Source: a virus | Strand: one strand, 5' to 3' | Length of the DNA stretch: 39,374 nt | Virus record (IMG/VR): IMGVR_UViG_3300008448_000236 | Coordinates: 1-39,374 of that record | Shown here: positions 5,115 through 25,378 of the stretch, one piece after another | Position numbering within the stretch: position 1 is the first letter of the stretch | Layout: each line of letters starts with the position of its first letter | Notes under the pieces: generated by a model | The model's input: only the letters and a program-made list of their open reading frames with translations | The model's database searches: none | Told to the model about the DNA's origin: nothing | Program-made: the position numbers and the translations under genes

Positions 5115-5642
5115 ATGGCAAAACCACTAAAAATATCAAATCCCAAAAAACAAGTATTGAAAAAGGGGGCAAAGCCAACACCCACCCAAAAAAAAGGGGC
5201 TGATAAAAATGAAGCAAAGAAGGTTAAGTCAGGCAAGCCAGTGGGCAGGCCTTCCGTTTACACCCAAGAAATTGCAGACAAAATTTGCGAAGAAATTGCA
5301 ACATCAAACAAAAGCATAAGGACAATATGCGCAATGGACGGTATGCCCGCCGTTTCCACGGTTTTAAAATGGTTGCAAGATGGGGCAAATGGATTTACGG
5401 AACAGTACGCGCGCGCGAAAGAAGAACAGGCCGACTTGCTCGTGGAGGATATGCTTGACATTGCGGAGCATGCAAGCGAAGATCACACTCCCTTTACTGG
5501 CAGCAATGTTGTTCAGCGCGACCGACTGCGAATAGAAACCCGAAAATGGATAGCCAGCAAGCTAAAACCAAAAAAGTATGGCGAAAAATTAGATGTTACC
5601 AACACTAACCGTACCATTATTGTCGAAGCTCCTGACGAATGA
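5115..5642 (+). CDS. terS: Terminase small subunit
   Basis: A 175-aa product. The first 40 residues are a Lys-rich disordered tail. Residues 43-110 carry the DNA-binding helix-turn-helix (GRPSVYTQEIADKICEEIA, SIRTICAMDGMPAVSTVLKWL) and a helical part (YARAKEEQADLLVEDMLDIA). The end has the common RIETRKWIASKLKPKKYGEK motif. This subunit recognises the packaging site and regulates the large subunit. Its stop overlaps the large-subunit ATG by four bases, which fixes the pair. The family pattern is clear, although small subunits vary strongly. Confidence 0.85.
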   Translation: MAKPLKISNPKKQVLKKGAKPTPTQKKGADKNEAKKVKSGKPVGRPSVYTQEIADKICEEIATSNKSIRTICAMDGMPAVSTVLKWLQDGANGFTEQYARAKEEQADLLVEDMLDIAEHASEDHTPFTGSNVVQRDRLRIETRKWIASKLKPKKYGEKLDVTNTNRTIIVEAPDE

Positions 5643-8065
5643 CAACAAAAGTGATATGGCCGAAATGGTCAAAAATAATCAACGAAAAATTTTTAACGCT
5701 ACCAAAATGCGCTGATCGCTATGTAATTCTTTACGGTTCTCGTGGTTCCTCAAAATCTGACTATGTGGCAAAGCAGATGGTTTATAACTGCTTGACACAT
5801 AAATATTTCAAATGTATTCTTTACAGGAAAAAGTACAATACCATTCAGGAATCCAGTTATGAAAATTTAAAGCAGACCATTTATTCCTTGGGCTTGCAAG
5901 ACCTTTTTCAGTTTCGGGTATCTCCGTTGTCAATTGTCTGCATAAATGGGAACCGGTTTATTGCCCGCGGCGGGGACGACCCGGCCAGCCTGAAATCAAT
6001 TAAGGATCCCACCTGTGTATGGTATGAGGAGGATATTCCCGACGAGGAGGATTTCGCCACTATATCGCTTACAATTCGTTCCGGTAAAGCTGACTGCCTG
6101 CAGGAGTATTTTACTATAAATCCCGAAATAGAGGGTGACTTTACCGAGAACTGGTTTTGGAAGCGATTTTTCGAGGGCAAGACCGATCTTTCTTACAGAA
6201 CCACGACCGAAATAGAGGTGGAGGGGAGGAAAGTAAAGTATAGCGTTAACGTGCATCATTCGGTTTACCAAGATAACCGTTGGCTACCGGATGCCGTAAA
6301 GGCGCAAATTGAGGGATATAAGGACACAAACCCATACCTGTACAGCGTATATGCCAAAGGGCTGTGGACGAGGAAGCAAACTGGCGGCAATTTTTACAAG
6401 CTATTCGACCGAGGCAGAAACACCGGCCAAGTAAAGTATAGTCCTTCCCTACCCCTGCACATTTCATTCGACTTCAACGTAAACCCATACATGACCTGCA
6501 CCATTTGGCAGCTGGAAGGGAAAACAGCCCGGCAGGTCGATGAAATTACGCTTCCCAGTCCCCAAAACAGAACCGAGAACGTTTGCCGGGAGTTTGAGCG
6601 CCGCTATCCTGGACACACAGCCGGCTTATTTGTTTATGGCGATCCTTCGGGCATGCAGGAGGACACCCGAACCGAGAAAGGATATAACGATTTTGTGATA
6701 ATTCAGCGAAAATTAGCCAAGTATCGCCCATCCCTGCGCGTTTCCAAGGCGGCACCGCCAGTAGTTATGCGTGGGAACTGGATAAACAGCATTTTTGCCC
6801 ACAATACAGGGGGGCTGACTGTCATTATTGGCGATAATTGCGGAAAAAGCATATCCGACCTCATGTACCTAAAGGAGGCCAGCGACGGGACAAAGGCTAA
6901 AACAAAGGAAAAAGACCCCGATACGGGGGTTAGTTACGAGCGATATGGCCACTGTTTTACCGGAGACACCCTTATTACCACATCAGAAGGACAAAAAAGA
7001 ATTGACCAAATAGAAAAAGGCGACTTAGTTCTCACAAGGCAAGGTTTTCGAAAGGTAAAAAAATTGTTTGATAATGGAATTCGGTATGTTAATACGTTTC
7101 AGATAGGCGAAAAAACAATAAGATGCACGCCTGACCACCATTTTTGGACAAAGGAACATGGCTTTTATTCTATTGGGCAGTTGATACATCCAACTACATT
7201 TTGTATATTTGAAACAAACAAAGTTTTAAAATGCAAGTTTCCAGTATTGAATTTAACGGTTTTAGGTTTAAAAGAAACCCCGAAGCAAAACGAAGATCAG
7301 ATCGGGTTTATTACAGCGGATGGATTAAAGAAAACAACGTACGGAAAAAGGAACGATTGCACCGATACGTTTGGAGGGTTTCGAATGGCGAAATTCCTGC
7401 CGGGTATCATATTCACCACATTGACGGCAACCCGCTTAATAACAGCATTGAAAATCTTTCTTTGGAACGTGGGGAAAATCATTTGTCATACCACGCAAAA
7501 AACGCCACAGAAGAGATTAAAGCTGCCCGAATACATACGCTTAACACGAAAGCGAGGGATTTGGCTAAAGAATGGCACAAGTCTACAGAAGGGAGAGAAT
7601 GGCACAGGCATCACGCAAAGAAAATCATTGAGCAACGCCGCCAGCAAAAAACCTGTATTGAATGCGGAATCCAATATGCCGGAAATACAAATTTTGGGGA
7701 AACAAAATATTGTTCCAAAAAATGCAAGTCAAGGTATGGGATGCGGGAAGATAGAAAATCTGGCAAATGGGATGAGCAGCGAAATTGCTCAAAATGCAGT
7801 GGAACGTTTACGGCTTACAAATGGAGCAAAACAAAATGCTGCTCAAAAAAATGCGGCGCTCAATTACGAGAGAGTTTACGATTTGGAAATTGAGGACGTT
7901 CACGAATATTTTGCCAACGGGATATTGGTGCACAATTGCTCCGATTCAATGGATTATCTCCTATGTTACGCCTATTTAGCCGACTTTACCCTATATCAAA
8001 AAGGTGGCGTGCCCACTAAGATCAGCGTCGGCCAGAATCCGACTTCTAAGCACAGATCATACTAG
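5639..8065 (+). CDS. terL: Terminase large subunit precursor, interrupted by an intein
   Basis: The precursor is 808 aa: N-extein residues 1-438, intein 439-766, C-extein 767-808. Splicing would give a 480-aa terminase, a normal family size. The motor has Walker A GSRGSSKS (33-40) and Walker B CVWYEE (126-131). The nuclease has acidic residues D278 (FDFNVNP) and D335 (YGDPSG), and its third active-site segment is rebuilt by splicing: YGH + CSDSMDYLL. Without splicing the nuclease site cannot form. A second gene, an HNH endonuclease, lies in another frame within the intein part, and the terminase frame remains open throughout. The start overlaps terS by ATGA. Confidence 0.92.
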   Translation: MTTKVIWPKWSKIINEKFLTLPKCADRYVILYGSRGSSKSDYVAKQMVYNCLTHKYFKCILYRKKYNTIQESSYENLKQTIYSLGLQDLFQFRVSPLSIVCINGNRFIARGGDDPASLKSIKDPTCVWYEEDIPDEEDFATISLTIRSGKADCLQEYFTINPEIEGDFTENWFWKRFFEGKTDLSYRTTTEIEVEGRKVKYSVNVHHSVYQDNRWLPDAVKAQIEGYKDTNPYLYSVYAKGLWTRKQTGGNFYKLFDRGRNTGQVKYSPSLPLHISFDFNVNPYMTCTIWQLEGKTARQVDEITLPSPQNRTENVCREFERRYPGHTAGLFVYGDPSGMQEDTRTEKGYNDFVIIQRKLAKYRPSLRVSKAAPPVVMRGNWINSIFAHNTGGLTVIIGDNCGKSISDLMYLKEASDGTKAKTKEKDPDTGVSYERYGHCFTGDTLITTSEGQKRIDQIEKGDLVLTRQGFRKVKKLFDNGIRYVNTFQIGEKTIRCTPDHHFWTKEHGFYSIGQLIHPTTFCIFETNKVLKCKFPVLNLTVLGLKETPKQNEDQIGFITADGLKKTTYGKRNDCTDTFGGFRMAKFLPGIIFTTLTATRLITALKIFLWNVGKIICHTTQKTPQKRLKLPEYIRLTRKRGIWLKNGTSLQKGENGTGITQRKSLSNAASKKPVLNAESNMPEIQILGKQNIVPKNASQGMGCGKIENLANGMSSEIAQNAVERLRLTNGAKQNAAQKNAALNYERVYDLEIEDVHEYFANGILVHNCSDSMDYLLCYAYLADFTLYQKGGVPTKISVGQNPTSKHRSY
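7181..7211 (+). promoter_or_regulatory. Candidate internal promoter for the HNH gene
   Basis: TTG (7181-7183), a 20-base spacer and TATATTTG (7204-7211), a perfect TAnnTTTG match. It stands 19 bases before the HNH start codon, inside the intein coding sequence. It lacks the GTAYAA spacer element found in the other phage promoters, as expected if it came in with a mobile gene. Confidence 0.55.
7231..7893 (+). CDS. HNH homing endonuclease encoded out of frame inside the TerL intein
   Basis: A 220-aa product in a different frame from terL. Residues 25-88 form a clear HNH_3-type core: RVYYSGWI, LHRYVWRVSNGEIPAGY, HIHHIDGN (62-67), NNSIENLSL and ENHLSYH. The C-terminal half has two Cys pairs arranged as zinc-binding repeats (CIECG...YCSKKC and CSKC...CCSKKC), a DNA-binding layout seen in phage HNH endonucleases. 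A stop in this frame (TGA, 7210) precedes the ATG, so it is not an extension of the intein. The A-rich leader (ACAAAGTTTTAAAATG) is a normal start for this genome. The last ten codons overlap intein block F. Its probable role is mobility of the intein allele. Confidence 0.88.
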   Translation: MQVSSIEFNGFRFKRNPEAKRRSDRVYYSGWIKENNVRKKERLHRYVWRVSNGEIPAGYHIHHIDGNPLNNSIENLSLERGENHLSYHAKNATEEIKAARIHTLNTKARDLAKEWHKSTEGREWHRHHAKKIIEQRRQQKTCIECGIQYAGNTNFGETKYCSKKCKSRYGMREDRKSGKWDEQRNCSKCSGTFTAYKWSKTKCCSKKCGAQLRESLRFGN

Positions 8066-8151: not shown

Positions 8152-8598
8152 ATGAACACAAAACAAGTAAAGGAGTACAAAATTGTACCGGTTAAAAATG
8201 AGGAAAATTACATAAAGGTAAAAATCAGCTCTACGGAAGATGCTGCTAATTACTGCCGCCAATTTTATTTCGACGACATTGCCGTATATGAGAGCTTTTT
8301 CCTTTTGCTTTTGAATAGGGCAAATAATACAATCGGCTGGGCCAAAATATCTCAGGGAGGCATTACTGGCACCGTTGCCGACGTTACCCTAATTGCAAAG
8401 TATGTAGTAGACAGCTTAGCGAAAGGCGCAATCATTTGCCATAATCATCCGTCCGGCAATTTGACTCCATCCAACACCGATATTTCCTTTACGCAACAAG
8501 TTAAAGCAGCCTTAGCATTATTTGACTGCAAGCTATTAGACAGCATTATTTTAACTGAGCAAAGTTATTACAGCATGGCCGACGAAGGAAAAATTTAA
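8152..8598 (+). CDS. RadC-like JAB/MPN (JAMM) domain protein
   Basis: A 148-aa product consisting of the MPN domain only. The JAMM metal-site residues are visible: E47 (YESFFLLLLN), the H97-N-H99-P-S-G motif, and D110 in NLTPSNTD. The flanking family sequence (ISQGGITGTVADVTLIAKYV, LDSIILTEQSYYSMADEG) is typical of RadC/YkfG-type proteins. The N-terminal helix-hairpin-helix of full RadC is absent, as is usual in phage and mobile-element forms. The substrate is unknown for this family. It is the first gene after its own promoter, so it is expressed separately from terminase. Confidence 0.85.
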   Translation: MNTKQVKEYKIVPVKNEENYIKVKISSTEDAANYCRQFYFDDIAVYESFFLLLLNRANNTIGWAKISQGGITGTVADVTLIAKYVVDSLAKGAIICHNHPSGNLTPSNTDISFTQQVKAALALFDCKLLDSIILTEQSYYSMADEGKI

Positions 8599-14077: not shown

Positions 14078-15445
14078 ATGAGTAAACGTAACCGACTCAG
14101 AAACGTCAAAAATGCCTTTAGCGCCAACACTCAGCCTGTTACATTCGGCGCTCCCGGTAGTGTAGCTGTAAGACAAGGCGGCGGCTCAACTGACCCTCAA
14201 AGGAACTTAACAAATAGAATTGCTCCCGTACAGCTCCAGCGCTTACGGCATGACGTTGCTATGTGGCGTGAGGCCGTTATTGAGGCCGAAAACGCTTGGT
14301 ACCCACACCGGGTAAAAATGCAGCGCTTGTACATTGATACAATTTTGAATGGTCACGTTTATTCTCTCATGGAAAGGAGAAAAGACTTAACGCTGCTCCG
14401 GGACTATTCATTTAAAGACGAGAAAGGGGAGGATATTGACGAGCTTAAGCAACTATTCAATGCTGAGTGGTTTGACTTGTTGGTAGGGTATATACTGGAC
14501 GCGTTGTTTTTTGGGTACAGCCTTGTTTCGCTGGGAGATATTGAAAGCGACCAGTTCACCAATACCTCTCTCATTCGGCGCTGGAACGTAAGCCCGGACC
14601 GTCTTAATGTGCCTGAGTTTATTTATTCCTTATCCGGCTCTAAGTTTGCGGAAGAGCCGTACAAAGACTGGCATATATGGGTATCTACCCCAAGCGAGAA
14701 CGGCGTGGGGACATGTGGGTACGGTTTATTCTACAAGATAGCCCTTTATGAGATTTTCCTGAGAAACACGTTAGGGTATAACGGCGACTTTGTGGAATTG
14801 TTCGCCATGCCTTACCGGGTGGGTAAAACTACCAAAACCGAGGAGGCCGAAAGAGCAGAATTGGAGTCTGCCATCCAGAACATGGGGTCCGCAGGCTGGG
14901 CTTTGATCGATCCAATGGACGAAATAGAGTTTTTAGAGAACGGTATGGCCGGCACCGGGTACACCGCTTACGAAAGTTTGGAAGAGCGCTGTCAAAAGAC
15001 GGTATCAAAGATAGTGCTGGGGCATGCTGACGCCGTAGATAGCACCCCTGGTAAGTTGGGATCGGGGCAAGGCGAGGACAGCCCGGTAGCGATTGCTTTA
15101 AAAGACAAGCAAGTAAAAGACGGAAAATTTGTTGAGCGCATTATAAACGGACAGTTGTTGCCAAAAATGCGCAACTTAGGCTTTAAATTGCCTGAAAATA
15201 TCCGATTTGAGTATAAAAACGACGCCGAAAAAGAGGCTTTCCGGGCAAGAGAGGACGCCAGCAACAAGGTGACAGCCGAGATAGCACAGACGATGAAAAA
15301 CGCTGGGCTTAAAATGGATGCCAAGTACTTTGAGGAGCGCACTGGGATTAAAACCAGCGAGGCCGAGGAGATTGAACAGGAAAGCGAAGAGGAAAAAGCA
15401 CAGTTTGAAAGCGTTCAAAATAAATTACTTAACCTTTACAGATAA
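14078..15445 (+). CDS. Portal protein, DUF935 (Mu gp29-like)
   Basis: A 455-aa product of normal family size. Diagnostic parts are RLYIDTILNGHVYSLMERRK, ILDALFFGYSLVSL, a YNGDFVELFAMPYRVGK segment, and ESLEERCQKTVSKIVLGHAD followed by DKQVKDGKFVERIING. The portal is a dodecameric ring at the capsid vertex through which DNA is pumped by terminase. The C-terminus is an acidic helix (EAEEIEQESEEEKAQ). Downstream are the gpF-like and gpG-like genes, so the Mu-type head module is largely collinear. Confidence 0.85.
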   Translation: MSKRNRLRNVKNAFSANTQPVTFGAPGSVAVRQGGGSTDPQRNLTNRIAPVQLQRLRHDVAMWREAVIEAENAWYPHRVKMQRLYIDTILNGHVYSLMERRKDLTLLRDYSFKDEKGEDIDELKQLFNAEWFDLLVGYILDALFFGYSLVSLGDIESDQFTNTSLIRRWNVSPDRLNVPEFIYSLSGSKFAEEPYKDWHIWVSTPSENGVGTCGYGLFYKIALYEIFLRNTLGYNGDFVELFAMPYRVGKTTKTEEAERAELESAIQNMGSAGWALIDPMDEIEFLENGMAGTGYTAYESLEERCQKTVSKIVLGHADAVDSTPGKLGSGQGEDSPVAIALKDKQVKDGKFVERIINGQLLPKMRNLGFKLPENIRFEYKNDAEKEAFRAREDASNKVTAEIAQTMKNAGLKMDAKYFEERTGIKTSEAEEIEQESEEEKAQFESVQNKLLNLYR

Positions 15446-15455
15446 AACAAACAAC

Positions 15456-15767
15456 ATGAGAACTATCCGCTTAAAAATCATTGAAAAACTGTTCAACTGG
15501 CTATTAAAGCCACACGAGCAAGTTATCGCAGCTCAAAAGGTGCTTTACGGTAAAGCCAGCCTCCCGGAAGTGCAGAAAGAGTTTGAGAAATCGTTTGGGA
15601 TTGACCAGGTAAGGAGAACCAAAACACAGTGGCAAAACCTTGTCCGTGTTTACGGAATGGAAACGGTTATGAAAATTGAGAAAATGACCGAAAACGAAAT
15701 CAGACTAAAGTGCGCAAAGTTCAGTGAGCGACTGAAAGAAGAATTTAAAATGAAATCGGTAAAGTGA
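15456..15767 (+). CDS. Small helical protein between portal and gpF-like gene, 103 aa
   Basis: The ATG at 15456 (ACAAACAACATG) is chosen; an upstream in-frame ATG lies within the portal gene. The product is helical and basic (KIIEKLFNWLLKPHEQVIAA, TVMKIEKMTENEIRLKCAKF). No motif known to me. Its TGA overlaps the next gene's GTG start. It probably acts in head assembly by position, but this is inference. Confidence 0.65.
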   Translation: MRTIRLKIIEKLFNWLLKPHEQVIAAQKVLYGKASLPEVQKEFEKSFGIDQVRRTKTQWQNLVRVYGMETVMKIEKMTENEIRLKCAKFSERLKEEFKMKSVK

Positions 15768-16567
15768 AATACAGCGACCGGCTCATACAAGCCTTGTTCA
15801 AAGGCATATACACTGGAAAGATAAGGCCCCGTGCGCTGCCGGCTTCATTGTACTTTGCTATTGCTGACTATTTAAAAAAAGGAATTTACGAGGGTTACGG
15901 CACCACCCTTAGTTCTTTGAAAGCTCCTAAAATGCCAGCCGGCTTTTCCACGGTTGATAAGTTATTGTTAACCGAGCTGAGGACAAACATATATCTTTTC
16001 AGCGCGGCAAAAACCTACCAGCAAGTAAGGGAAATGAGCAACGCTCTCATTGGAGAGGACGGCAAAATAGTTTCGTTTAAGCAGTTCCGGGAAAAGGCAG
16101 ACCAAACCTATTCTTTGTACAATAAAACTTGGTTGCAAACAGAGTACGACACTGCCACGGGTCAGGCGCAAGCCGCAAGGAAGTGGACGGAAATAGAAAA
16201 AAATGCTGACTTGTTTCCGCTGTTAGAATATTCAGCGGTACTGGATAAAAGGACAAGCGACATTTGCCGTCCATTGGACGGAATTATCGCACCGGTTAAC
16301 GACCCTATTTGGAAGAAGGTTGCTCCCCTTAATCATTTCAATTGCCGCTGTTTGCTATTGCAAGTTTCCGAGGGAAAGCAGACCAGCTCTAAGGAAAAGA
16401 AGTCAAAAGTTGAGGAAACCGAAAAGCAAATGGACGACTTGTTTAAAATGAACCCCGGACAGGACAAATATATTTTCAGCAAAAAGCACCCTTATTTTGA
16501 CGTGGCTCCAAAAGACAAGGAGCTGGCGAAAAAAAACTTTAACCTCAAAATTCCCAAAAACGACTAA
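15764..16567 (+). CDS. Mu gpF-like head morphogenesis / minor capsid protein
   Basis: The start is GTG in a GTGA overlap. The 267-aa product holds the gpF signature near residues 160-205: LDKRTSDICRPLDGIIAPVN, then DPIWKKVAPLNHFNCRCLL, with the conserved CRxxDG and H-x-NCRC elements. The C-terminus (HPYFDVAPKDKE) is also common in Bacteroidota relatives. gpF-like proteins associate with the portal vertex in early capsids. Upstream helices (TELRTNIYLFSAAKTYQQVR) match the family's N-terminal part. Confidence 0.85.
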   Translation: MKYSDRLIQALFKGIYTGKIRPRALPASLYFAIADYLKKGIYEGYGTTLSSLKAPKMPAGFSTVDKLLLTELRTNIYLFSAAKTYQQVREMSNALIGEDGKIVSFKQFREKADQTYSLYNKTWLQTEYDTATGQAQAARKWTEIEKNADLFPLLEYSAVLDKRTSDICRPLDGIIAPVNDPIWKKVAPLNHFNCRCLLLQVSEGKQTSSKEKKSKVEETEKQMDDLFKMNPGQDKYIFSKKHPYFDVAPKDKELAKKNFNLKIPKND

Positions 16568-16568
16568 C

Positions 16569-16928
16569 ATGAAAATAGAGGAACTGGTATCTTTTTTCTT
16601 ACAAGTGAGCAATCAGGTAAAGCTGTATCACTGGCAAACCGAAAGTTACGCTGAACACGTTGCTCTCGGTGACTTTTATGGAGCGTGGAACGAATTGACC
16701 GACAGCTTTGTGGAAACGTATGGGGGGCTTTACGGACGGCCTAAAGGCGGCGTTAAAACGTCAGCTAATCAGTATGCCGGGTCCATTAACCAGTACATGC
16801 TTCAGGTGGCCGTACAACTGGCGTCACAAAACGTTAGGAGTGTTGCCCCTGAAACTGCCCTCCAAAACATACTTGACGAGATAAGCGCTTTAACAATGAA
16901 AACGGCATACTTGCTGACAATGAAATAA
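16569..16928 (+). CDS. DUF5856-like (ferritin-like helical) phage protein
   Basis: The ATG at 16569 directly follows the previous stop. The 119-aa product is all-helical and begins MKIEELVSFFLQVSNQVKLY, then HWQTESYAEHVALGDFY, DSFVETYGGLYGRPKGG. The HWQTxSxAxHxALGxFY pattern is seen in DUF5856-like and Dps/ferritin-fold phage proteins. Whether metal is bound cannot be judged. It lies among head-completion genes. Family resemblance is moderate. Confidence 0.6.
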   Translation: MKIEELVSFFLQVSNQVKLYHWQTESYAEHVALGDFYGAWNELTDSFVETYGGLYGRPKGGVKTSANQYAGSINQYMLQVAVQLASQNVRSVAPETALQNILDEISALTMKTAYLLTMK

Positions 16929-16929
16929 A

Positions 16930-17505
16930 ATGGCAGACAACAAATTTCAGTTCCGAAGAGTTGTTCAAAACGTGGAGAAGTTGAAAAGGACTTTGCCAAA
17001 CTTGCTTGCTAATCAGGCGCAGACTTTTTTTGCTCAAAGCTGGAAAAAGAAAGGCTGGGACGACAATGGCGTGAAACTATGGGAGAAAAGGGACGACACC
17101 GGTAAGAAATCAGAAGGCCGTGCTTTGTTGGTGAAATCGGGAAAGCTCAGAAGAGCCGTGGAGCAGTCTATCCGCTTAAAATCTTTTGAGAAAATTCAGC
17201 TGGTAGTGGCTTTACCCTATGCGGAGGTACACAATGAAGGATATAACGGAATGAGAGCAGCACATAGCCGGGCTTTATTTACGAAGTCAACTACTCGCCA
17301 GTTTATCGGACTAAAGAGAAACAAAAAAGGACAGCTGAAAGAGGCGCATAGAAGGACAACGATATACACTCGCACGGGAGAGGCTCAGGTAAAAGCGCAC
17401 ATGTTTAAAATGCCAAAGCGGCAATTTATGGGTGATAGCGCAACGCTTAGGCAAATGCAAAGAAAATTAATTGACCAACAAATAACAAAAGTATGGCTGG
17501 CATAA
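16930..17505 (+). CDS. Mu gpG-like phage virion morphogenesis / tail completion protein
   Basis: A 191-aa product with the family layout: N-terminal helix (VEKLKRTLPNLLANQAQTFF), SWKKKGWDDNGVKLWEKRDD, ALLVKSGKLRRAVEQSI, and PYAEVHNEGYNG, in which Y-A-x-x-H-N-x-G is the most conserved element. The C-terminal PKRQFMGDS is also characteristic. It acts in completing the neck or tail end. The next gene starts 13 bp before its stop. Confidence 0.8.
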   Translation: MADNKFQFRRVVQNVEKLKRTLPNLLANQAQTFFAQSWKKKGWDDNGVKLWEKRDDTGKKSEGRALLVKSGKLRRAVEQSIRLKSFEKIQLVVALPYAEVHNEGYNGMRAAHSRALFTKSTTRQFIGLKRNKKGQLKEAHRRTTIYTRTGEAQVKAHMFKMPKRQFMGDSATLRQMQRKLIDQQITKVWLA

Positions 17506-18077
17506 GGGCCCCCTTACAGGACATATTATCCAAACTGGCCACTATTCAAGTGACAAACGGCGACGGGGCTGAGGTTGACTTGTATGCCCGTATATGGAAT
17601 AATCAAATTGAGGCAGAAAGAGCTGGAAACAGCTATGTATATCCTAAGCCGGCGGCTTTTGTTGAAACGGTCAGCCCAGTAGTGTTTCAAGAAATAGGCC
17701 AAAACTTTAGAAGTGCCGATATTGGTATTAATATTCACCTTGTACATGAGTATTACAACGAGGACGGCAACTTTGAGCAAGACTTACTTGTTTTCGATAT
17801 ACGAGATCAAATAGTGGCGGCTCTCTCACAGTTTAAGCCAACCGGTTGCGGACAAATGGTATCAATCGGGGAGCAGCAAGATTACGACCACGATAATATT
17901 TATCACTACATTATATCATTCGTTTGTAACTTTATTGACAGCAAAGGCAGCCCCTATGACTTAGGTAGAGGAATTTATGTAGAAAAAGAGCCGCCTACAA
18001 ACGTGAATATTGTAGTCACAAAAGACGACCAGCCAGTGTTTAACCCAATTCAACAACCCTACAAAATACCTCAATAA
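17493..18077 (+). CDS. Tail terminator/completion-type protein (gp37-like), 194 aa
   Basis: An alpha/beta product: APLQDILSKLATIQVTNGDG, then PAAFVETVSPVVFQEIGQNF, DIGINIHLVHEYYNEDGN, FDIRDQIVAALSQF and a late strand pair (IYHYIISFVCNFIDSKG). This is the layout of tail terminator proteins, which stop tail-tube growth and join to the head. Identification is by fold pattern and by its place between gpG-like and baseplate genes, not by a diagnostic motif. Confidence 0.6.
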   Translation: MAGIRAPLQDILSKLATIQVTNGDGAEVDLYARIWNNQIEAERAGNSYVYPKPAAFVETVSPVVFQEIGQNFRSADIGINIHLVHEYYNEDGNFEQDLLVFDIRDQIVAALSQFKPTGCGQMVSIGEQQDYDHDNIYHYIISFVCNFIDSKGSPYDLGRGIYVEKEPPTNVNIVVTKDDQPVFNPIQQPYKIPQ

Positions 18078-18922
18078 TGGCTCGACAAATTTCAGAAGTC
18101 CAACAGCAGATGCTGGATAACATTGCAGCCGACACCACGCTGGGACCCTTGTTGACGTCAACCAGCAAGAGAGCTATTTTCCGGCTGTTCACATACATAG
18201 TGGCCGTGGCTATTAATGCACTGGAGCAGCTCATTGATATTTTCACCATTTCGGTAGAGTCAACAGCAGCCAAAGCAGCCCCGGCAACGCCGTCATGGGT
18301 GCAAGATCAGGTTTTGAAATTTCAATACAGCGCAACAACCCCCCAAGTGGTACAGCTCATAGACTTCGCACCGGCTTACCCAATAGTGGACGAAACGCTA
18401 AGAATAATCACCAGGTGCAGCGTAACGACTAACCTTTCAAACAGCGTATTGATTAAAGTCGCTACCGGAGAGCCGCCAGCTGCATTGTCAGCGCCACAGT
18501 TATCAGCGCTGCAATCTTACATTAATCAGATAGGCATAGCTGGCGTGGCTTATTCAGTTACTTCCGAAATATCGGATAAATTATTTGTTCAGGCTAATGT
18601 GTACTACCTCGGACAATACAGCGCTGTAATTAAAGCGAATGTGGTGGCGGCAATAAACGCTTACCTCGCTGCAATACCCTTCAACGGTCAAATGAAAATA
18701 ACCGATCTGGAAGACGCTATCACCGGAGTTGAAGGCGTTAATGACGTGGTGCTCGTAAACGTGCGCGCGCGTGCGAATGGTACCGCTTTTGGGGACGGAT
18801 CTTTCTTAGTTCAAAACCAACAAACTATCGGAAGGCTGTGGGCTACCATTGCTGGCTACATAGTGGGTGAAACCACTTCCGGGAACACTCTGAATGACAG
18901 TATAACCTTTATAGCTGAATAA
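18077..18922 (+). CDS. Baseplate J-like protein
   Basis: A 281-aa product with the gp47/gpJ order of elements: an N-terminal helical part with LLTSTSKRAIFRLFTYIVAV, a central strand-rich part, and the diagnostic C-terminal region ISDKLFVQANVYYLGQYSAV, NAYLAAIPFNGQMKITDLED, AITGVEGVNDVVLVNVRAR. It forms part of the baseplate wedge. Stop and next start overlap (TAATG). It is separated from the other wedge/hub genes at 28-31 kb by the capsid and tail genes, which is unlike the order in Mu. Confidence 0.75.
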   Translation: MARQISEVQQQMLDNIAADTTLGPLLTSTSKRAIFRLFTYIVAVAINALEQLIDIFTISVESTAAKAAPATPSWVQDQVLKFQYSATTPQVVQLIDFAPAYPIVDETLRIITRCSVTTNLSNSVLIKVATGEPPAALSAPQLSALQSYINQIGIAGVAYSVTSEISDKLFVQANVYYLGQYSAVIKANVVAAINAYLAAIPFNGQMKITDLEDAITGVEGVNDVVLVNVRARANGTAFGDGSFLVQNQQTIGRLWATIAGYIVGETTSGNTLNDSITFIAE

Positions 18923-19593
18923 TGCCGACCATTTACGACATAGACTTTTCAAAGTTTGCCCCGCAAATGCTCCCGCCGGACAAACGTTTCACCCGTTCCG
19001 TGGCGTGGGTTAAAATACTTTTATCCCCATTGCAGTATTTACGAGATCTCTGGTTTGGGTCATATCGCACCGGATCCACCGCCCCAGCCTATGCAGCCGG
19101 GACGTATGCGAAATATGCGCAAGTTCGATATAACAAAATAGTTTACGAAAGTCTAAAAAGCGGAAACACCGATTTACCAACGGTCACCGCCAGCTGGAAA
19201 GTTGTACAGCAAAACTTTATTGGCTTGTCGGAAAGGATATTGTACACCGGTCAAAAGTTGACTTTGGAGTATGGCATGAATAAATGGTTTGGCACTACTT
19301 TTAGGCAGCCGCCAAACGTTTCGGATATTTACATTACGAACAACACACTTGCAATTCCTGTGTTTCGCGTAGCCGGTGACGAGGATAGCTCCTCAGTTGT
19401 TTTCAATGAAACGTCCTCGGAGTTTGTTATTAATGATTACAACTTTGCCGTTCAGTTTAATTTCACAATAAATTGCCCAGTGGCTGTTTACAATGCTTTG
19501 GACACCGTTGCGGCAAATAGAGAAAAAATATTTAGAGCCTTTGTGGACCAATACGTCCCAGCCGGCTTAACTTATAACATAGTAACCTACTAA
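18922..19593 (+). CDS. Baseplate-associated protein (tail protein I-like) with carbohydrate-binding-like insert
   Basis: The N-terminus (DFSKFAPQMLPPDKR, WVKILLSPLQYLRDLWFGSY) and the C-terminal half (GMNKWFGTTFRQPP, NREKIFRAFVDQYVPAGLTY) resemble gp48/tail-protein-I-type wedge proteins. Residues 55-90 (AYAAGTYAKYAQVRYNKIVY, then ESLKSGNTDLP...SWKVV) are a module like those inserted in the protein encoded at 9698. It links wedge to fibres by position, next to J-like and fibre genes. Confidence 0.65.
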   Translation: MPTIYDIDFSKFAPQMLPPDKRFTRSVAWVKILLSPLQYLRDLWFGSYRTGSTAPAYAAGTYAKYAQVRYNKIVYESLKSGNTDLPTVTASWKVVQQNFIGLSERILYTGQKLTLEYGMNKWFGTTFRQPPNVSDIYITNNTLAIPVFRVAGDEDSSSVVFNETSSEFVINDYNFAVQFNFTINCPVAVYNALDTVAANREKIFRAFVDQYVPAGLTYNIVTY

Positions 19594-19595
19594 AA

Positions 19596-20366
19596 ATGAG
19601 AAAACTAAGCACCTCCTCGGTAAGTAATACAACGGCAATGCCAGTGAAAGCCGGCACATTACAGCATTTACAGTTAGCCTATCAAGAGGCTGTCAATGCG
19701 CTTGCACGAAACGTAATCAGAAGAGATACGGACACCACGCGCGCCTATATTTTATTCGGCTGTGTGAACAGCGGATCAGCCGGCTCAATGAACGTAAGCG
19801 CTGGAGCCATATATTACGCCGGTGAAGTTTATTTAGTGGACGCATTTACTTTGACAGTAACGCAAGCGGCTGTTGCGGCAATTACAACAACGTTTTACAA
19901 CGTAAACGCTGACCCGGTTACATTCACGGACGGCGTGCCAAGAAATGTTCACGAAATACGAAAGATCACATTCAGCAACGCCGCCAGTGGCAGTGGGCTG
20001 TTTGATTTTGGTAACATGGTGCCAACGCCAAGTGCACTTAACACCGAGCTGAATACCACTGTGCCCGGAACCTATACGGTAAGATTTGACCGGGATAGAG
20101 CCGTTTTCTTTAGTTCAAACGGAGCTGCCGCTTTTAATATCACTTTTGATTTTACAAATGCAGTTCCCGGAACGGTAGTCAGAATTAAATTCACGCTTAC
20201 GTCAGCCGGCTCATTAACAGTAAGTCAGCCGTCAGGTAGTACTGTGATAAAAGACAGCGGAACCCTTGCCAGCGCCGTAAACGCAAATAACTTGCTTTAT
20301 TGCATGTATTGCGGAAAGAACAGCGCTGGAAACGACGAAGTTTCATACATTTTAAAGCAATTCTAA
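19596..20366 (+). CDS. Fibre-like structural protein, 256 aa
   Basis: It starts three bases after the previous stop. The N-terminal segment (AGTLQHLQLAYQEAVNALAR) is helical and looks like an attachment part; the rest is beta-rich with Thr/Ala/Gly/Ser bias (SAGSMNVSAGAIYYAGEVYL). The last 100 residues (GTYTVRFDRDRAVFFSSNGA, then LTVSQPSGSTVIKDSG) form a fibre-tip-like sandwich. It probably binds the baseplate as a short fibre. No catalytic motif. Confidence 0.6.
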   Translation: MRKLSTSSVSNTTAMPVKAGTLQHLQLAYQEAVNALARNVIRRDTDTTRAYILFGCVNSGSAGSMNVSAGAIYYAGEVYLVDAFTLTVTQAAVAAITTTFYNVNADPVTFTDGVPRNVHEIRKITFSNAASGSGLFDFGNMVPTPSALNTELNTTVPGTYTVRFDRDRAVFFSSNGAAAFNITFDFTNAVPGTVVRIKFTLTSAGSLTVSQPSGSTVIKDSGTLASAVNANNLLYCMYCGKNSAGNDEVSYILKQF

Positions 20367-20668
20367 TGATTGAAAGGTATTACTTAGCAATTGATGCTAG
20401 CACTACGCCGCCGCCAGCTGGTTTTCCGAGGACGTTGGTTATTGCGACGTTCTCTAATTATCCGAACATCTGCACGCTGCCTGAACAAACGCTATACACC
20501 GCCTCCACCGCTGCCGCTATTGCGCCTGGCATGACATTGTATTTTGACGACGCTTTAACAAACCCAGTAACTGGTTATTCATACGTCAGGGATATTTTCA
20601 ACGGCTCTATTTTTAACTTGAATGACTTAACAGGCGTAATTCAATCTGATACAGGACAAAGATGTTAA
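20366..20668 (+). CDS. Small structural protein, 100 aa
   Basis: The ATG at 20366 overlaps the previous stop (TAATG). The sequence (MIERYYLAIDASTTPPPAGF, TFSNYPNICTLPEQTLYTAS, YVRDIFNGSIFNLNDLTG) is beta-rich and ends in Cys (TGQRC). Its place directly after a fibre-like gene suggests a fibre cap or domain protein. No family recognised. Confidence 0.55.
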   Translation: MIERYYLAIDASTTPPPAGFPRTLVIATFSNYPNICTLPEQTLYTASTAAAIAPGMTLYFDDALTNPVTGYSYVRDIFNGSIFNLNDLTGVIQSDTGQRC

Positions 20669-20678
20669 ACCCGTATAT

Positions 20679-20897
20679 ATGGCAGAAAAGAAAACCTATC
20701 AGTCCACTAAGGAGGCATTGAAAAGGAGAGTACATTCTTATCCTCCTCCAAAATACCACAATTTAACGGTGGCTTATGCCTCTTTAAACGAAATGAGAAA
20801 AAGTGAGGTGGTTACTCAGGCAATTAAAGAGTTTTTTGACCGCATGCCAAAACCCGAACAGGAGCGCATTTTGCGGCAGTCAAAACATAGGTTTTAA
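20679..20897 (+). CDS. Ribbon-helix-helix-like small protein, 72 aa
   Basis: After a basic start (MAEKKTYQSTKEALKRRVHS), residues 27-58 (YHNLTVAYASLNEMRKSEVV, TQAIKEFFDRM) match a ribbon-helix-helix DNA-binding domain: one strand, a helix, the turn at RKSEVV, and a second helix. The C-terminus is basic. It ends three bases before the promoter that serves the capsid operon, so it could regulate that promoter. Identification is by pattern only. Confidence 0.5.
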   Translation: MAEKKTYQSTKEALKRRVHSYPPPKYHNLTVAYASLNEMRKSEVVTQAIKEFFDRMPKPEQERILRQSKHRF

Positions 20898-20899
20898 AA

Positions 20900-20931
20900 T
20901 TGTAGTGTATAAAAGGGCTGGCATGTCTTTG
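20900..20931 (+). promoter_or_regulatory. Probable promoter of the capsid-tail operon
   Basis: TTG (20900-20902), a 21-base spacer containing GTATAAAA, then TGTCTTTG (20924-20931), one mismatch to TAnnTTTG. The ATG of the protease gene is 21 bases downstream. The spacer element is aligned with the other phage promoters. Confidence 0.55.
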
Positions 20932-20952
20932 GAATTATAATTTACATTCAAT

Positions 20953-22092
20953 ATGGAAAACCCATACATGAACTACGTTATCAATATAGACTCAGACGAA
21001 CCAATAATGATGTTGGACAAACACATTGGCGGCTGGGACGATAAAAACGGTTACGGAATTGACGGCAGCAAGTTTGCCTCCGAGCTTATGGCGCTTGACG
21101 GCATGGGTAAAAAGCGCATTCAGGTTTGGATCAATTCTACCGGGGGAAGTGTGGTTGACGGATATAACATTTGCAATGCAATTCTGAAAAGCAAGACCAA
21201 GGTTGATACATACTGCGCTGGCATTGCGGCGTCAATGGCTGGGGTTATTTTCCAGTGTGGCAGAAAGCGCGTAATGGCTGACTATGGAATCTTGATGTAC
21301 CATAACCCGTATATCGCAACCGGAGAGGGCTCAGACGACGGCGTTTTGGAGTCCATGAAAAACAGTTTGAATAAAATTGTTTGCCAAAAGTCGGGAATGG
21401 ACGAGCAAGCCGTGGCTATGATGATGGACAGAACCTCTTTTATCAATGCAGAAGAGGCGCGGACCATGAATTTATGTGACGAAATTGAAAACACTGCTGG
21501 GCTTAATGCTCCGAGAGTAAGCCGTGCAACAAATGACCTGAGTGTTATTTGGAATGCGGCAAATGCAGTTTTGAATAAATATTTTAATAATCAAACCCCG
21601 TCAAAGATGAAACTTGTAATGAACAAGCTGGGGCTGAACATTGACGCTGCTGAGGCAAGCGCTGTTGCTGCTATTGAGGCAATTCAAAATCAGCTCACCG
21701 AAAGAGAAACTCAAATAGAGACTCTTCGCGCGGAAATTGCCGCACAAACGCAAGCCGCTGAACAAGCCGCCCAAGCATTAAACGCCGCACAGGAGCAACT
21801 CACACAGCTGCAAGCTGAAAGAGACGCTGCTGCTGAGGCTACTCGCGTTGCTGAGGCGACAAACATGATTAAGGGATATGCTGCCCAAGGTCGTATCAAA
21901 AACGACGACGTTACCCTCCAATCGTGGATTGCGAAAGCGAAGGACGATATGACCGGCGTAAAGACCATGCTGGAGAGCTTGCCTTTGAATAAGGCTGCTG
22001 TTCACATTGCCGTTGAGCCACAAAAAGGAGAAGTTGCTACCAGCGCTGCTTCCTTAATGGCAAAAGTCATGAACAAAACCAAAAAACAATAA
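20953..22092 (+). CDS. ClpP-like (S14) head maturation protease fused to scaffold domain
   Basis: A 379-aa product. Residues 1-180 are the ClpP-like protease: QVWINSTGGSVVDGYNI, catalytic Ser94 in AGIAASMAG, catalytic His117 in ILMYHNPY, and FINAEEARTMNLCDEIE near the expected third residue. Residues 210-300 are an Ala/Gln/Glu-rich coiled coil (QTQAAEQAAQALNAAQEQLT) typical of internal scaffolds. The C-terminus is Lys-rich. In such fusions the protease removes scaffold and trims capsid during maturation. It directly precedes the capsid gene. A second ATG five codons in (MNYVINI) is an alternative start. Confidence 0.9.
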   Translation: MENPYMNYVINIDSDEPIMMLDKHIGGWDDKNGYGIDGSKFASELMALDGMGKKRIQVWINSTGGSVVDGYNICNAILKSKTKVDTYCAGIAASMAGVIFQCGRKRVMADYGILMYHNPYIATGEGSDDGVLESMKNSLNKIVCQKSGMDEQAVAMMMDRTSFINAEEARTMNLCDEIENTAGLNAPRVSRATNDLSVIWNAANAVLNKYFNNQTPSKMKLVMNKLGLNIDAAEASAVAAIEAIQNQLTERETQIETLRAEIAAQTQAAEQAAQALNAAQEQLTQLQAERDAAAEATRVAEATNMIKGYAAQGRIKNDDVTLQSWIAKAKDDMTGVKTMLESLPLNKAAVHIAVEPQKGEVATSAASLMAKVMNKTKKQ

Positions 22093-22116
22093 TTAACCCT
22101 ATAAAAATCAAGCAAA

Positions 22117-23115
22117 ATGTCACTCTTAATCAATGACACGTCGTATGCCGGTACTTTTGCGAGCTACTTTTGGTTGCCCGCTACTTTCGGTATGGACACG
22201 ATCCAAAAAGGTGCCGTGTATGTAAAAGACGGTATCAAAAAGAAGCACACTATCGGTCGTATTGACCTCTCAAATCCCCTCCAGCCACGTGCTGCTACAC
22301 CGGTTAGCAATAACACCAATGGAACTTTTACCATTGACGGCAGAGTATTGGAGCCGCAAGATCACATGTTTTACACCGAGTTTAACCCTCGCGACTTTGA
22401 AGAACATTGGTTAGCCGAGCAGCTTTCACCCACATTGTTGGCGCGTGAACTGCCTTTGACAGCGGAAAACTACATGATGCAGATTGCACTTAACCGGACT
22501 TTCGAGCAGATCGAAACCGAAATCTGGATGGGATCCACAACCTATAACGCAACTCCCGGCGACCCCGGAAACGGCCAGCTGATGTTTATGGACGGCTTTA
22601 TGAAAAAGTTTGTCAATGACGCCAGCGTGGTGCAAGTACCCAGCCCCGTTGCGTTAAGTGCTGCAAATATCTTAACTCAAATGGACGCTCTGATTACCTT
22701 AGTTGCAAGCAATAGAAAGGCTTTGATTAGCCGGGCAAATAGGTATGATAGAATGAAGTTCTTTATGTCTATTGAGTCCGAGCAATTCTATCAAGCGGCT
22801 TTGGTTACTGGTACCACCTTCAAAGGTTTGAACACCATGGACCGTGGAATTAAGCCTTGGAAAGGTTATGAAGTAGTGCCTATTGCCGGTTTCCCGGACG
22901 ACACAATCCTGTTTTGTGAGGGCTTGCCTGATACCAGCTCCAACTTGTATGTGGGTATGAACTCAACCGAGGACAACAACCTCCAGTTAATGCGCCTGCA
23001 GAACAACAGTGAGCTGTTCTTCCTGAAAGGATTGATGAAATTTGACGTTCAGTACGGGTTTTCTAATCAGATTTTCCTGTACACCACGCTCACCCCCGGA
23101 TATTTCAACTCTTAA
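22117..23115 (+). CDS. Major capsid protein
   Basis: A 332-aa product. Identification rests on position (immediately after protease/scaffold, before a terminator-like hairpin) and on an HK97-type layout: an N-terminal region with SYFWLPATFGMDTIQKG, long helices (YMMQIALNRTFEQIETEIWM, ILTQMDALITLVASN), and a late P-domain/strand part (FKGLNTMDRGIKPWKGYEVV, DVQYGFSNQIFLYTTLTPGY). Length is normal for the fold. Cleavage by the upstream protease may remove a short N-terminal part, but no site can be named. Confidence 0.85.
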   Translation: MSLLINDTSYAGTFASYFWLPATFGMDTIQKGAVYVKDGIKKKHTIGRIDLSNPLQPRAATPVSNNTNGTFTIDGRVLEPQDHMFYTEFNPRDFEEHWLAEQLSPTLLARELPLTAENYMMQIALNRTFEQIETEIWMGSTTYNATPGDPGNGQLMFMDGFMKKFVNDASVVQVPSPVALSAANILTQMDALITLVASNRKALISRANRYDRMKFFMSIESEQFYQAALVTGTTFKGLNTMDRGIKPWKGYEVVPIAGFPDDTILFCEGLPDTSSNLYVGMNSTEDNNLQLMRLQNNSELFFLKGLMKFDVQYGFSNQIFLYTTLTPGYFNS

Positions 23116-23124
23116 TAATTAATC

Positions 23125-23149
23125 GGAAAGCCCTGTAATGGGGCTTTCC
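23125..23149 (+). terminator. Stem-loop after the capsid gene (partial terminator or RNA-stabilising hairpin)
   Basis: GGAAAGCCC (23125-23133) pairs perfectly with GGGCTTTCC (23141-23149) around a 7-base loop. No T-run follows, only TCAAATAAATT. It probably tunes expression by keeping capsid mRNA higher than the downstream tail genes, or protects a 3' end. Confidence 0.65.
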
Positions 23150-23163
23150 TCAAATAAATTAAA

Positions 23164-23598
23164 ATGAAAAAACTATTTTCTTTGTTAGTGTTAATGGCTT
23201 TTGCCTATGGGGCAACAGCTCAGGGACTTGTACCACGTTTCGGAACAAAAAAGAACGAGGACAATACCGGACGGGTATTGACGTATAAACTAGCGCCGAC
23301 TATTACCGACGCTGTAGGCGTTGACTCTGTTGTTATCAATCCCAGTGCTTTTGAAACGTACTATCGCGTTAACTTGAATAACGACACCCTTACGTTGCGC
23401 TCTCCTATTGTAACCAACAGTTATTACGGAGATAAAATTATCATTCAAGTTGTGGGCACAAACGGACGCCGATTAAAATTTGCACCGCCTAATTTTTTAA
23501 GCACAGGAGCCGCAACCTTATCAACTGGAGCTGTTGCGACTATCGTATTTGTCTTTAACGGGGTGCGCTGGGTAGAACAAAGCCGCGTCGTTCAATAA
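23164..23598 (+). CDS. Protein with Sec signal peptide in the capsid-sheath interval
   Basis: A 144-aa product beginning MKKLFSLLVLMAFAYGATAQ, a textbook Sec signal peptide with cleavage at ATA-Q. The mature part is beta-rich (YRVNLNNDTLTLRSPI, GDKIIIQVVGTNGRRLKFAP, ATIVFVFNGVRWVEQSRVVQ), and the VFNGVRWxEQ end resembles C-terminal domains of phage fibre and decoration proteins. A head-decoration role would fit the position, but the signal peptide implies transport to the periplasm. Both possibilities are open. Confidence 0.7.
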   Translation: MKKLFSLLVLMAFAYGATAQGLVPRFGTKKNEDNTGRVLTYKLAPTITDAVGVDSVVINPSAFETYYRVNLNNDTLTLRSPIVTNSYYGDKIIIQVVGTNGRRLKFAPPNFLSTGAATLSTGAVATIVFVFNGVRWVEQSRVVQ

Positions 23599-23619
23599 TG
23601 ATCTTTAAAAACAACTGAT

Positions 23620-23841
23620 ATGGGAAGGCCAAAAAAAGAACAAGCAAGCTCGGTTGAACTGGGCGCTAAATTTGTTAAAAACAACGAACAACCCTCGATT
23701 AAGTACAATGAGGAGCTGGTGGCTACTTTGAAAAAGTACCCCCACATTGATTGTGTGTTCTTTAACGAAGAAGGAAGCTGGCACTTTGCAGAAAAGCCGG
23801 GTTTCAGTCCAGTAAGCCGGGAAGAGATTTTGAACGGATAA
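23620..23841 (+). CDS. Small hypothetical protein, 73 aa
   Basis: It begins MGRPKKEQASSVELGAKFVK and includes YPHIDCVFFNEEGSWHFAEK. Small proteins with a GRPKK start and a central V-(F/Y)-F-x-E-x-G-x-(W/Y)-H-F strand pair occur between capsid and tail genes in Bacteroidota phages. No known function; a structural or assembly role is suggested by position only. Confidence 0.6.
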   Translation: MGRPKKEQASSVELGAKFVKNNEQPSIKYNEELVATLKKYPHIDCVFFNEEGSWHFAEKPGFSPVSREEILNG

Positions 23842-23851
23842 AAAACACGAA

Positions 23852-25378
23852 ATGTCACTCAATAACATCACATTCAATCTTGGACAAGGAGGCTTGGGCC
23901 GCGCCTTGCCCGGTGAAGATTATATTTCAGGCTTGCTGTTTTTCAGCGCCACGTTGCCCTCCGGCTTTAGCGTTAACAACAGGGTGAGGCAGTTTTTCAG
24001 CCTTGCTGACGCTGAGGCCGCTGGTATTACAGGCAATTTCAGCGACGAAACGAGAGCAACAGCTACTTTTAACGTTACAGCTCTCGGAGCCAACGGTGAC
24101 AGAGTAGAATTAAGGGTAAACGAAATGCTGGGGGCTGTTGTGAGTCTTGGAGCATATACTAAGACGTCAGCCGAAAGTACCACTACCCTCGTTGCAACTG
24201 CTATTGTCGCTGCTATTAATTCCGGGACTAATACTCACGGATATACAGCCGTTGGCGCTGCTGCCGTTGTTACGATTACAGCAAAGCCTGGCATGGGGGT
24301 TTTCTTGAACACGGGATCTCCTCTTACTGCCACATACAGCGCTGGTGCAACGCTGGCTGGTACCATTGTTCAGTTTACCGGTGGCGTTTCCTCTCGTTTT
24401 TCTATATGGCATTACCACATCAGCGAATATTTCCGCCTGCAGCCGCAAGGAAATCTGTTTGTCGGCGTTTATGCTGTACCCGGCTCTTACACCTTTACTG
24501 AAATTACCACCATGCAAAATTTTGCAAACGGTAAAATCAGACAAATTGGAGTCTTTAAAGACGGTGCTGCTTTTGCAAGTGCGGATATTACTGCCATTCA
24601 CAATGTTTGTGCGGCCAACGTTGCGGCTCACAAAGAGATCATTGCTCTTTACGCTGGAGATATTGCAGCGGTTTCCGACATTTCGACCATTGCGGATTTG
24701 TCAACCTTAACAGCACACTATTGCTCGGCAATTATAGGGCAAGACGGAAACGCTAAAGGGGCAAGGCTCTATTTAATGAGTGGAAAGTCTGTTACTGTAC
24801 TGGGAGCCACACTAGGAGCTGTTGCCAAAGCAAAAGTTTCTCACTCTATTGCGTGGGTTGCTCAGTTCAATATCAGCAACGGAGTTGAGAATGACGTATT
24901 GGCTTTTGCAAACGGAGTTTTATTCTCGCATTCCAGCATTACCGACAGCCTTCTCAATACGATTGACGATCGTCGGTATATTTTCCTTAGAAAATTTGTT
25001 GGCATTTCGGGCTCTTATTTCAACGAAAACAGCACCAGCATTGCGCTTTCCAGCGACTATGCCTATATCAGTGACAACCGGACAATTCAAAAAGCTACCC
25101 GTGGCATTTATGCCAGCGTACTGCCGGCACTCAATAGCCCTATCACTTTGAAGAGTGACGGAACTTTAAGCGACGAGGCAGCAGCTTATTTTGAAGGACT
25201 GGCCGGAACTGCTTTGGACGAAATGGTAAGAAATGCCGAGCTGAGTGGATATAACGTCACCGTAAACACCCAGCAAAATGTTCTTTCAACCGGTATTTTG
25301 ACTATCAATGTTACCCTGGTGCAAATCGCTACTGGCAGAAACATTGTGGTTAATATCGGTTATGACGTAACAATTTAA
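23852..25378 (+). CDS. Tail sheath protein (DUF2586-like)
   Basis: A 508-aa product of sheath length. The N-terminus (NITFNLGQGGLGRALPGEDY) and the middle (AGDIAAVSDISTIADLSTL, ARLYLMSGKSVTVLGATLGA) match DUF2586-type sheaths. The C-terminal region has the conserved RRYIFLRKFVGISGSYFNEN, DYAYISDNRTIQKATRGIY and a last strand NIVVNIGYDVTI. The sheath encloses the tube and contracts on infection, which sets the contractile-tail type of this phage. A Thr/Ala-rich domain (residues 60-180) is inserted, as in other sheaths. Confidence 0.85.
   Translation: MSLNNITFNLGQGGLGRALPGEDYISGLLFFSATLPSGFSVNNRVRQFFSLADAEAAGITGNFSDETRATATFNVTALGANGDRVELRVNEMLGAVVSLGAYTKTSAESTTTLVATAIVAAINSGTNTHGYTAVGAAAVVTITAKPGMGVFLNTGSPLTATYSAGATLAGTIVQFTGGVSSRFSIWHYHISEYFRLQPQGNLFVGVYAVPGSYTFTEITTMQNFANGKIRQIGVFKDGAAFASADITAIHNVCAANVAAHKEIIALYAGDIAAVSDISTIADLSTLTAHYCSAIIGQDGNAKGARLYLMSGKSVTVLGATLGAVAKAKVSHSIAWVAQFNISNGVENDVLAFANGVLFSHSSITDSLLNTIDDRRYIFLRKFVGISGSYFNENSTSIALSSDYAYISDNRTIQKATRGIYASVLPALNSPITLKSDGTLSDEAAAYFEGLAGTALDEMVRNAELSGYNVTVNTQQNVLSTGILTINVTLVQIATGRNIVVNIGYDVTI

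Follow-up and report, generated by a model that had tools for sequence, protein, structure and literature searches.

An intein in a phage terminase gene that shares its DNA with an HNH endonuclease gene in another frame

The terminase large subunit gene (terL) of the viral record IMGVR_UViG_3300008448_000236 contains a complete intein, and the DNA of this intein also encodes, in another reading frame, an HNH endonuclease with its own start and stop. We analyzed the record over its whole length of 39,374 nucleotides (nt), hereafter the window, and consider the element to be very probably a dual-coding mobile intein with a separately initiated HNH homing endonuclease. A first-pass annotation, made from the sequence of the window, could see only a single case, but such elements form a widespread family, of which the window holds one member. 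The features of the locus are given below, with lengths in amino acids (aa), a slash at the insertion point, L numbers as locus labels and AlphaFold scores as predicted local distance difference test (pLDDT) values.

5639-6952, plus strand: N-extein of TerL, 438 aa, with the ATPase and nuclease motifs I-II (Terminase_3 / PBSX-type; Pfam Terminase_3, E 1.5e-39; 19 relatives 44-87% identical)
6953-7936, plus strand: cis intein, 328 codons, between His438 and the Cys of TerL nuclease motif III (YGH/CSDSMDYLL), with C1, block B TxxH, VYDLEIEDVHEYFANGILVHN and the +1 Cys; empty site YGHCSD in L281, L283 and L284
6953-7246, plus strand: N-terminal half of the Hint domain, blocks A and B, residues 1-98 (AlphaFold pLDDT; nearest solved relative the gp41-1 intein, 6qaz)
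7225-7231, plus strand: T_TTA_AAA, a slippery heptamer of the terL zero frame that coincides with the start of the HNH gene, a candidate -1 site that was not supported
7231-7893, plus strand: HNH endonuclease gene, 220 aa, in frame -1 relative to terL (HNH_3, E 3.5e-14; phrog_15471, E 3.1e-29; AlphaFold pLDDT 93.3)
7247-7852, plus strand: linker in the intein frame, residues 99-300, which is the HNH gene read in +1; predicted to be mostly disordered, weakly constrained and stop-free
7853-7936, plus strand: C-terminal half of the Hint domain, blocks F and G (NCBIfam intein_Cterm, E 5.8e-7; AlphaFold 84-98)
7937-8065, plus strand: C-extein of TerL, 42 aa and stop, which follows the N-extein without a break in the empty relatives L281-L296

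Two genes on one stretch of DNA

The terL gene is a single uninterrupted open reading frame (ORF) at 5639-8065 that encodes 808 aa, and the complete intein that the first-pass annotation had placed inside it was borne out by its splicing residues and profile matches. The intein starts with CFTGDT and finishes with GILVHN, after which the C-extein continues with CSDSMDYLL. It has the residues of a class 1 intein (C1, T59xxH62, H327-N328 and the +1 Cys), and both splicing ends were matched by Pfam and NCBIfam profiles (intein C-terminal and Hint models). In a Foldseek comparison the two predicted halves matched inteins, gp41-1 among them (E 5.6e-7), the closest solved Hint structures including the phage split inteins gp41-1 and NrdJ-1. 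AlphaFold gave blocks of 84-98 for the first 90 residues, 53 for residues 91-100 and 84-98 for residues 301-328, while the middle was mostly below 60 (mostly 39-58) except for one helix at residues 141-181, which may be a by-product of conserved HNH codons read in +1. The insertion is precise, in frame and leaves the exteins intact, as the empty allele L281 joins YGH/CSD exactly. The spliced TerL is predicted to have 480 aa, the length given before. A group I or II intron was not found in the window, where no Rfam match exceeded the threshold and only a sub-threshold match to Chlorobi-1 appeared, and the unbroken terL frame is not that of a fractured gene with a split intein.

The 220-aa HNH gene had also been described in the first pass, and the ORFs and the matches to HNH_3 and phrog_15471 confirmed it. 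It runs from the ATG at 7231 to a TGA stop at 7891-7893, with an in-frame TGA upstream at 7210-7212. Relative to the HNH, terL is read in frame +1, and this frame stays open across the whole HNH gene, and the first 41 nt of the Hint C-terminal half double as the HNH C-terminus and stop. The protein consists of an HNH core and two C-terminal CxxC/CxxxC zinc fingers; H62, H63, N71, N75, H84 and the zinc cysteines are invariant in the HNH alignment, the mean pLDDT is 93.3 and the best match among solved structures is I-HmuI (1u3e). When the HNH protein was recoded with the codon usage of the window, the terL frame acquired a mean of 6.9 stops and was open in 0.015% of draws, and when the gene's own synonymous codons were permuted there were 4.1 stops, the frame remaining open in 0.25% of cases. 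Because recoding and permutation so rarely leave the frame open, the open terL frame across the HNH gene is not due to chance. Among 16 other long genes of the window, none had a same-strand alternative frame of at least 220 codons, the longest being 133.

Recurrence of the arrangement

Viral contigs were scanned with the HNH as seed and, separately, with the DNA motif of the intein/TerL junction LVHNCxDxxRY, which makes the junction-seeded sample independent of the presence of an HNH. Together the scans gave 201 inteins, of which 189 had an HNH with the host frame at +1, three had the host frame at +2 and nine were mini-inteins of 124-145 aa. An HNH in frame with the intein, as in canonical inteins, occurred in none of the 201, and in the window too the HNH lies in another frame. 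In the junction-selected sample, 97 of 106 resolvable inteins were nested (among them L159, which is degenerating, and L096, which is short) and nine were HNH-less mini-inteins at the same site; 13 more were unresolved, mostly at contig ends, together with L097, which is split, and L128, which is nested.

The search of related terL genes for inteins with a frame-shifted HNH, which had been proposed in the first pass, thus found the architecture in about 139 non-redundant phage loci, including those of the cultured phages TJE1 and Highwayman. The splicing residues C1, terminal N and C/S at +1 were present in 136 of 136 inteins scored, and block B TxxH in 135 of them. The HNH start was ATG in 131 of 139 genes, with an in-frame stop close upstream (median 12 nt), and in most of the family this ATG overlies an intein tryptophan codon (xxA-TGG). 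The HNH stop was TGA in 108 of 139 and overlies the conserved Tyr-Asp of block F or the neighboring Val/Ile-Glu, so that motifs of the intein supply both ends of the HNH gene.

A tblastn search with the HNH protein alone gave matches within the annotated terL of Tetrasphaera phage TJE1, Acinetobacter phage Highwayman and Rhodobacteraceae phage LS06-2018-MD07, and in an unannotated gut contig; a scan of genome contigs with a single HNH protein gave only five weak relatives. The annotation of the three phages omitted the HNH. In the records checked only one of the two genes was kept, so similar elements may be hidden in databases. Distant HNH relatives, 66% identical over 35 residues, were also seen in an archaeal genome bin (L302 and L303, a Methanobrevibacter metagenome-assembled genome).

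An arrangement of this kind could arise in principle as a sequencing or assembly error, if two indels had pushed an in-frame endonuclease out of frame, and compensating indels were what the first-pass annotation had named as a ground for giving up its proposal. The HNH has its own start and stop, in-frame counterparts are absent from the whole collection, and the frame relation is common to the approximately 139 loci, including the isolates TJE1, Highwayman and LS06-2018-MD07. An error has practically no chance of being the cause, and we rejected it as refuted by the family. Its recurrence in well over 100 other phage sequences marks the arrangement as a conserved mobile element and excludes a sequencing error.

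Selection on both frames

The numbers of stops to be expected were obtained by permuting the synonymous codons of each of the 139 non-redundant nested HNH genes. There were no stops in the host frame over these genes against 393 expected, and 3059 against 3058 in the third frame. The 31 free-standing HNH relatives, which have no covering open frame, had 242 stops against 232 expected, and none of them was open. The earlier claim that selection holds the terL frame open is upheld by these counts. Five nested copies in the other frame (L225, L226, L268, L272 and L274) had no stops in +2, where about 10-13 were expected, and 7-14 stops in +1. The HNH protein imposes approximately 3 expected stops per gene in +1 and approximately 22 in +2, which accounts for the strong preference for +1 and means that the +1 frame can be opened by mostly synonymous changes.

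Between related nested genes, 45-52% of the substitutions fell at HNH third positions, which are host second positions. The codon-level check of both frames gave omega values of 0.16-0.40 for the HNH and 0.35-0.79 for the host overlap, these being simple counts on related nested-gene pairs that are not independent and were not corrected for multiple hits. Purifying selection acts on the HNH at the protein level, while the overlapping part of the intein frame amounts to a linker with almost no constraint. The Hint parts outside the overlap are likewise subject to purifying selection (pN/pS 0.41), and the splicing residues show practically no variation. These results support what had been proposed from the window, namely that one stretch of DNA carries the intein and the HNH as distinct coding units, both frames being held by selection.

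It is also conceivable that the HNH frame is a relic, the intein still splicing in the window phage and the HNH no longer being made. Homing enzymes often decay, and the remnant L159 and the mini-inteins exist. The HNH of the window, however, has its full length, lacks none of the catalytic residues and reaches a pLDDT of 93, its nearest relative L297 retains an intact HNH in the same frame, and the close pairs have omega values of 0.16-0.23; a relic seems unlikely to us. The first-pass annotation had held that homologues with a disrupted HNH frame and a kept intein would speak against its proposal. Such homologues do occur, as the nine mini-inteins and L159, yet the dual-coding reading stands, because inteins without an HNH are the normal end of the homing cycle and do not argue against it.

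Mobility and related states

The exact empty site was present in 18 of the 19 TerL relatives of the window. One of these, L281, shares 87% identity with the window across the N-extein, and its sequence at the site is SFEKYGH/CSDANDYLL. The remaining relative, L297, is occupied by this intein; its HNH is 53% identical to that of the window and is read in the corresponding frame. In a comparison of TerL, intein and HNH distances over 114 loci, inteins 88% identical occurred in TerLs only 30% identical, and inteins 49% identical in TerLs 89% identical; the correlation of HNH and intein distances persisted after the TerL distance was removed. The distribution is sporadic and the HNH has moved horizontally with its carrier, as is the case for homing endonucleases.

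Mini, nested, split and free-standing forms occur at the same locus. The free-standing members of the HNH family adjoin terL, most often directly downstream; about ten lie beside an uninterrupted TerL (e.g. L003, L008, L214 and L278) and about thirteen between the halves of a split TerL intein (e.g. L009 of phage CL2, L020, L021, L030, L213, L220 and L235). The labels nested +1, nested +2, split and free need 17 changes on the HNH tree, which has 92 rows and many weak branches, and the nested, split and free states therefore appear to interconvert. The cultured Schitoviridae Vibrio phages 1.245.O (L305) and 1.238.A (L306) look split, with an unannotated HNH between the TerL (intein) gene and a 'hedgehog/hint domain protein'. 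In Salmonella phage Shemara (L309), an HNH relative with its own annotated ribosome-binding site lies between terL and the portal gene on the opposite strand.

Since free-standing relatives adjoin terL like the HK97 gp74-type genes, the HNH could be a packaging cofactor of the terminase, a role described for HK97-type HNH proteins, instead of a homing enzyme, and a functional link to TerL would then account for its location in terL. Both readings of the HK97 gp74-type HNH genes have been discussed (PMC10448857). The empty sites in 18 of 19 close relatives, whose flanks (up to about 4 kb) contain no such HNH save for a weak match in L284, and the nine inteins without an HNH imply that the HNH is dispensable. 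It also moves with the intein between unrelated TerLs, and its best solved match is a homing enzyme, I-HmuI. A role in packaging is therefore very unlikely.

Expression and proposed mechanism

We suggest that translation of the terL mRNA in the terL frame yields a precursor protein and that the intein splices itself out of it to leave the 480-aa TerL, the middle of the intein serving as a mere linker kept free of stops. Internal initiation at the ATG at 7231 on the same mRNA would yield the HNH as a protein of its own, a homing endonuclease of I-HmuI/HNH_3 type that most likely cuts intein-less terL near motif III, and repair would then copy the intein and endonuclease together. As for the origin, a free-standing HNH gene flanking terL probably entered a mini-intein at the usual position of the endonuclease, and synonymous changes may then have opened the +1 frame. 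Splicing, translation of the HNH, the cleavage site, homing and the direction of evolution are what we infer.

Instead of starting independently, the HNH could be made by programmed -1 frameshifting at T_TTA_AAA (7225-7231), giving a TerL-N/intein-N/HNH fusion. The heptamer fits X_XXY_YYZ in the terL zero frame and the change needed is -1. However, slippery heptamers were not enriched near the HNH starts across the family (0.0025 per nt against 0.0032 elsewhere), and the prevalence of ATG starts with a close upstream in-frame stop argues for initiation at the HNH start itself. Shine-Dalgarno-like motifs were enriched, preceding 29% of HNH starts in the family against 7% of control positions, and the families in frame +2 would need another mechanism. 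Frameshifting is extremely unlikely on these grounds.

Several points weigh against a mobile intein with a separately initiated endonuclease, in addition to the limits of the omega counts given above. The window has no clear Shine-Dalgarno sequence before the ATG at 7231, and only the above 29% of the family have one; a promoter of the HNH itself is not among the features shown; and intein splicing, HNH production and the cutting of terL are computational predictions only. The likely host of the window is a member of Bacteroidota, which may not need a Shine-Dalgarno sequence, judging from its closest TerL relatives, which include Flavobacterium phages, and from general knowledge.

A second case at the P-loop

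In L066 and ten relatives (within L312-L326), a second, unrelated intein, which lies at the TerL P-loop and ends in SHN/SGKT, carries another kind of HNH in frame +2; on visual inspection this HNH is NUMOD4-like. The host frame had no stops in any of these inteins, where 11-17 were expected in each, and eleven free-standing relatives of the P-loop HNH had 20-39 stops in that frame. The terL of L066/L312 (2688-5558 of L312) carries both elements, a P-loop intein with the HNH in +2 and a motif III intein with the HNH in +1. Because the HNH, the TerL intein and the frame all differ, dual coding seems to have arisen at least twice.

Neighboring genes in the window

A RadC-like DNA repair gene (8152-8598; phrog_10276, E 6e-25) lies directly 3' of terL. 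Matches to portal (phrog_113), head maturation protease and tail sheath at 14078-25378 imply that the window is from a contractile-tailed phage, and a 693-aa ORF at 36728-38809 is exonuclease-like at its N-terminus and FtsK/SpoIIIE-like at its C-terminus.

Comparison with known systems

In textbook inteins the endonuclease is an in-frame domain. The window element shares with canonical mobile inteins the Hint domain, the position of the endonuclease region after block B and before block F, the insertion in a conserved catalytic motif and the sporadic distribution, but their endonuclease is within the spliced polypeptide, whereas that of the window element is in another frame with its own start and stop. 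Mobile inteins with endonucleases, including HNH-type inteins and those of mycobacteriophage TerL, have been described, the latter reported in the ATPase domain and not, as in the window, in nuclease motif III (PMC5050341). With I-HmuI and the other HNH_3 homing endonucleases of phage group I introns the window HNH shares the HNH_3 core, although I-HmuI is borne by an intron and no group I intron was found in the window. The gp41-1 and NrdJ-1 inteins, close as their Hint structures are, are split and splice in trans, whereas the window intein is cis.

Fractured genes, in which a separate endonuclease gene lies between the halves of a split intein, were reportedly described by Dassa et al. in 2009. 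They resemble the window element in that one locus encodes the intein and the endonuclease as separate proteins, and relatives of the window HNH lie between split TerL-intein halves in L009 (phage CL2), L220, L021, L030, L020, L305 and L306. In the window, however, the host ORF is unbroken, the intein is cis and the HNH gene overlaps it wholly. To our knowledge, the overlap is among the larger conserved same-strand gene overlaps in phages, and it comes with a clear rule for the choice of frame. One phage locus shows the possible states together (an empty terL with the HNH next door, a mini-intein, a nested out-of-frame HNH and a split intein with the HNH between), so the order of events can be tested by phylogeny and experiment. 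This bears on the open question of how endonuclease genes first enter inteins.

The chances seem to us evenly balanced that dual-coding inteins are a general and previously undescribed class of mobile elements, in which a free-standing HNH homing gene inserts out of frame into a mini-intein, mostly synonymous changes open the host frame and two proteins evolve on one stretch of DNA. Such a class would have at least two origins (motif III with HNH_3/zinc-finger proteins in +1, rarely +2, and the P-loop with NUMOD4-like proteins in +2) and would be the predominant form of TerL motif III inteins. The first-pass annotation knew of no described system of this type; this holds in that no identical case was found, but near precedents exist in the split inteins with an HNH between their halves and in the ShiLan domain (PMC11855218). 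The comparison with prior work found only ShiLan and a phage announcement following it, and excludes bioRxiv 10.1101/2025.01.02.630785, Gorbalenya 1998 and Dassa 2009; among the references of the ShiLan paper is a preprint that deals with overlapping frames and non-canonical inteins of phages (PMC11855218). In the ShiLan domain / Pacc40, an out-of-frame HNH is inserted in phage methylase genes (PMC11855218, 2025), and it shares with the window element a zinc-finger HNH out of frame inside an insert, an open host frame and a sporadic spread. The ShiLan insert, however, lacks both the motifs and the fold of an intein and is believed to remain part of the protein, whereas the HNH in the window is flanked by a complete Hint domain.
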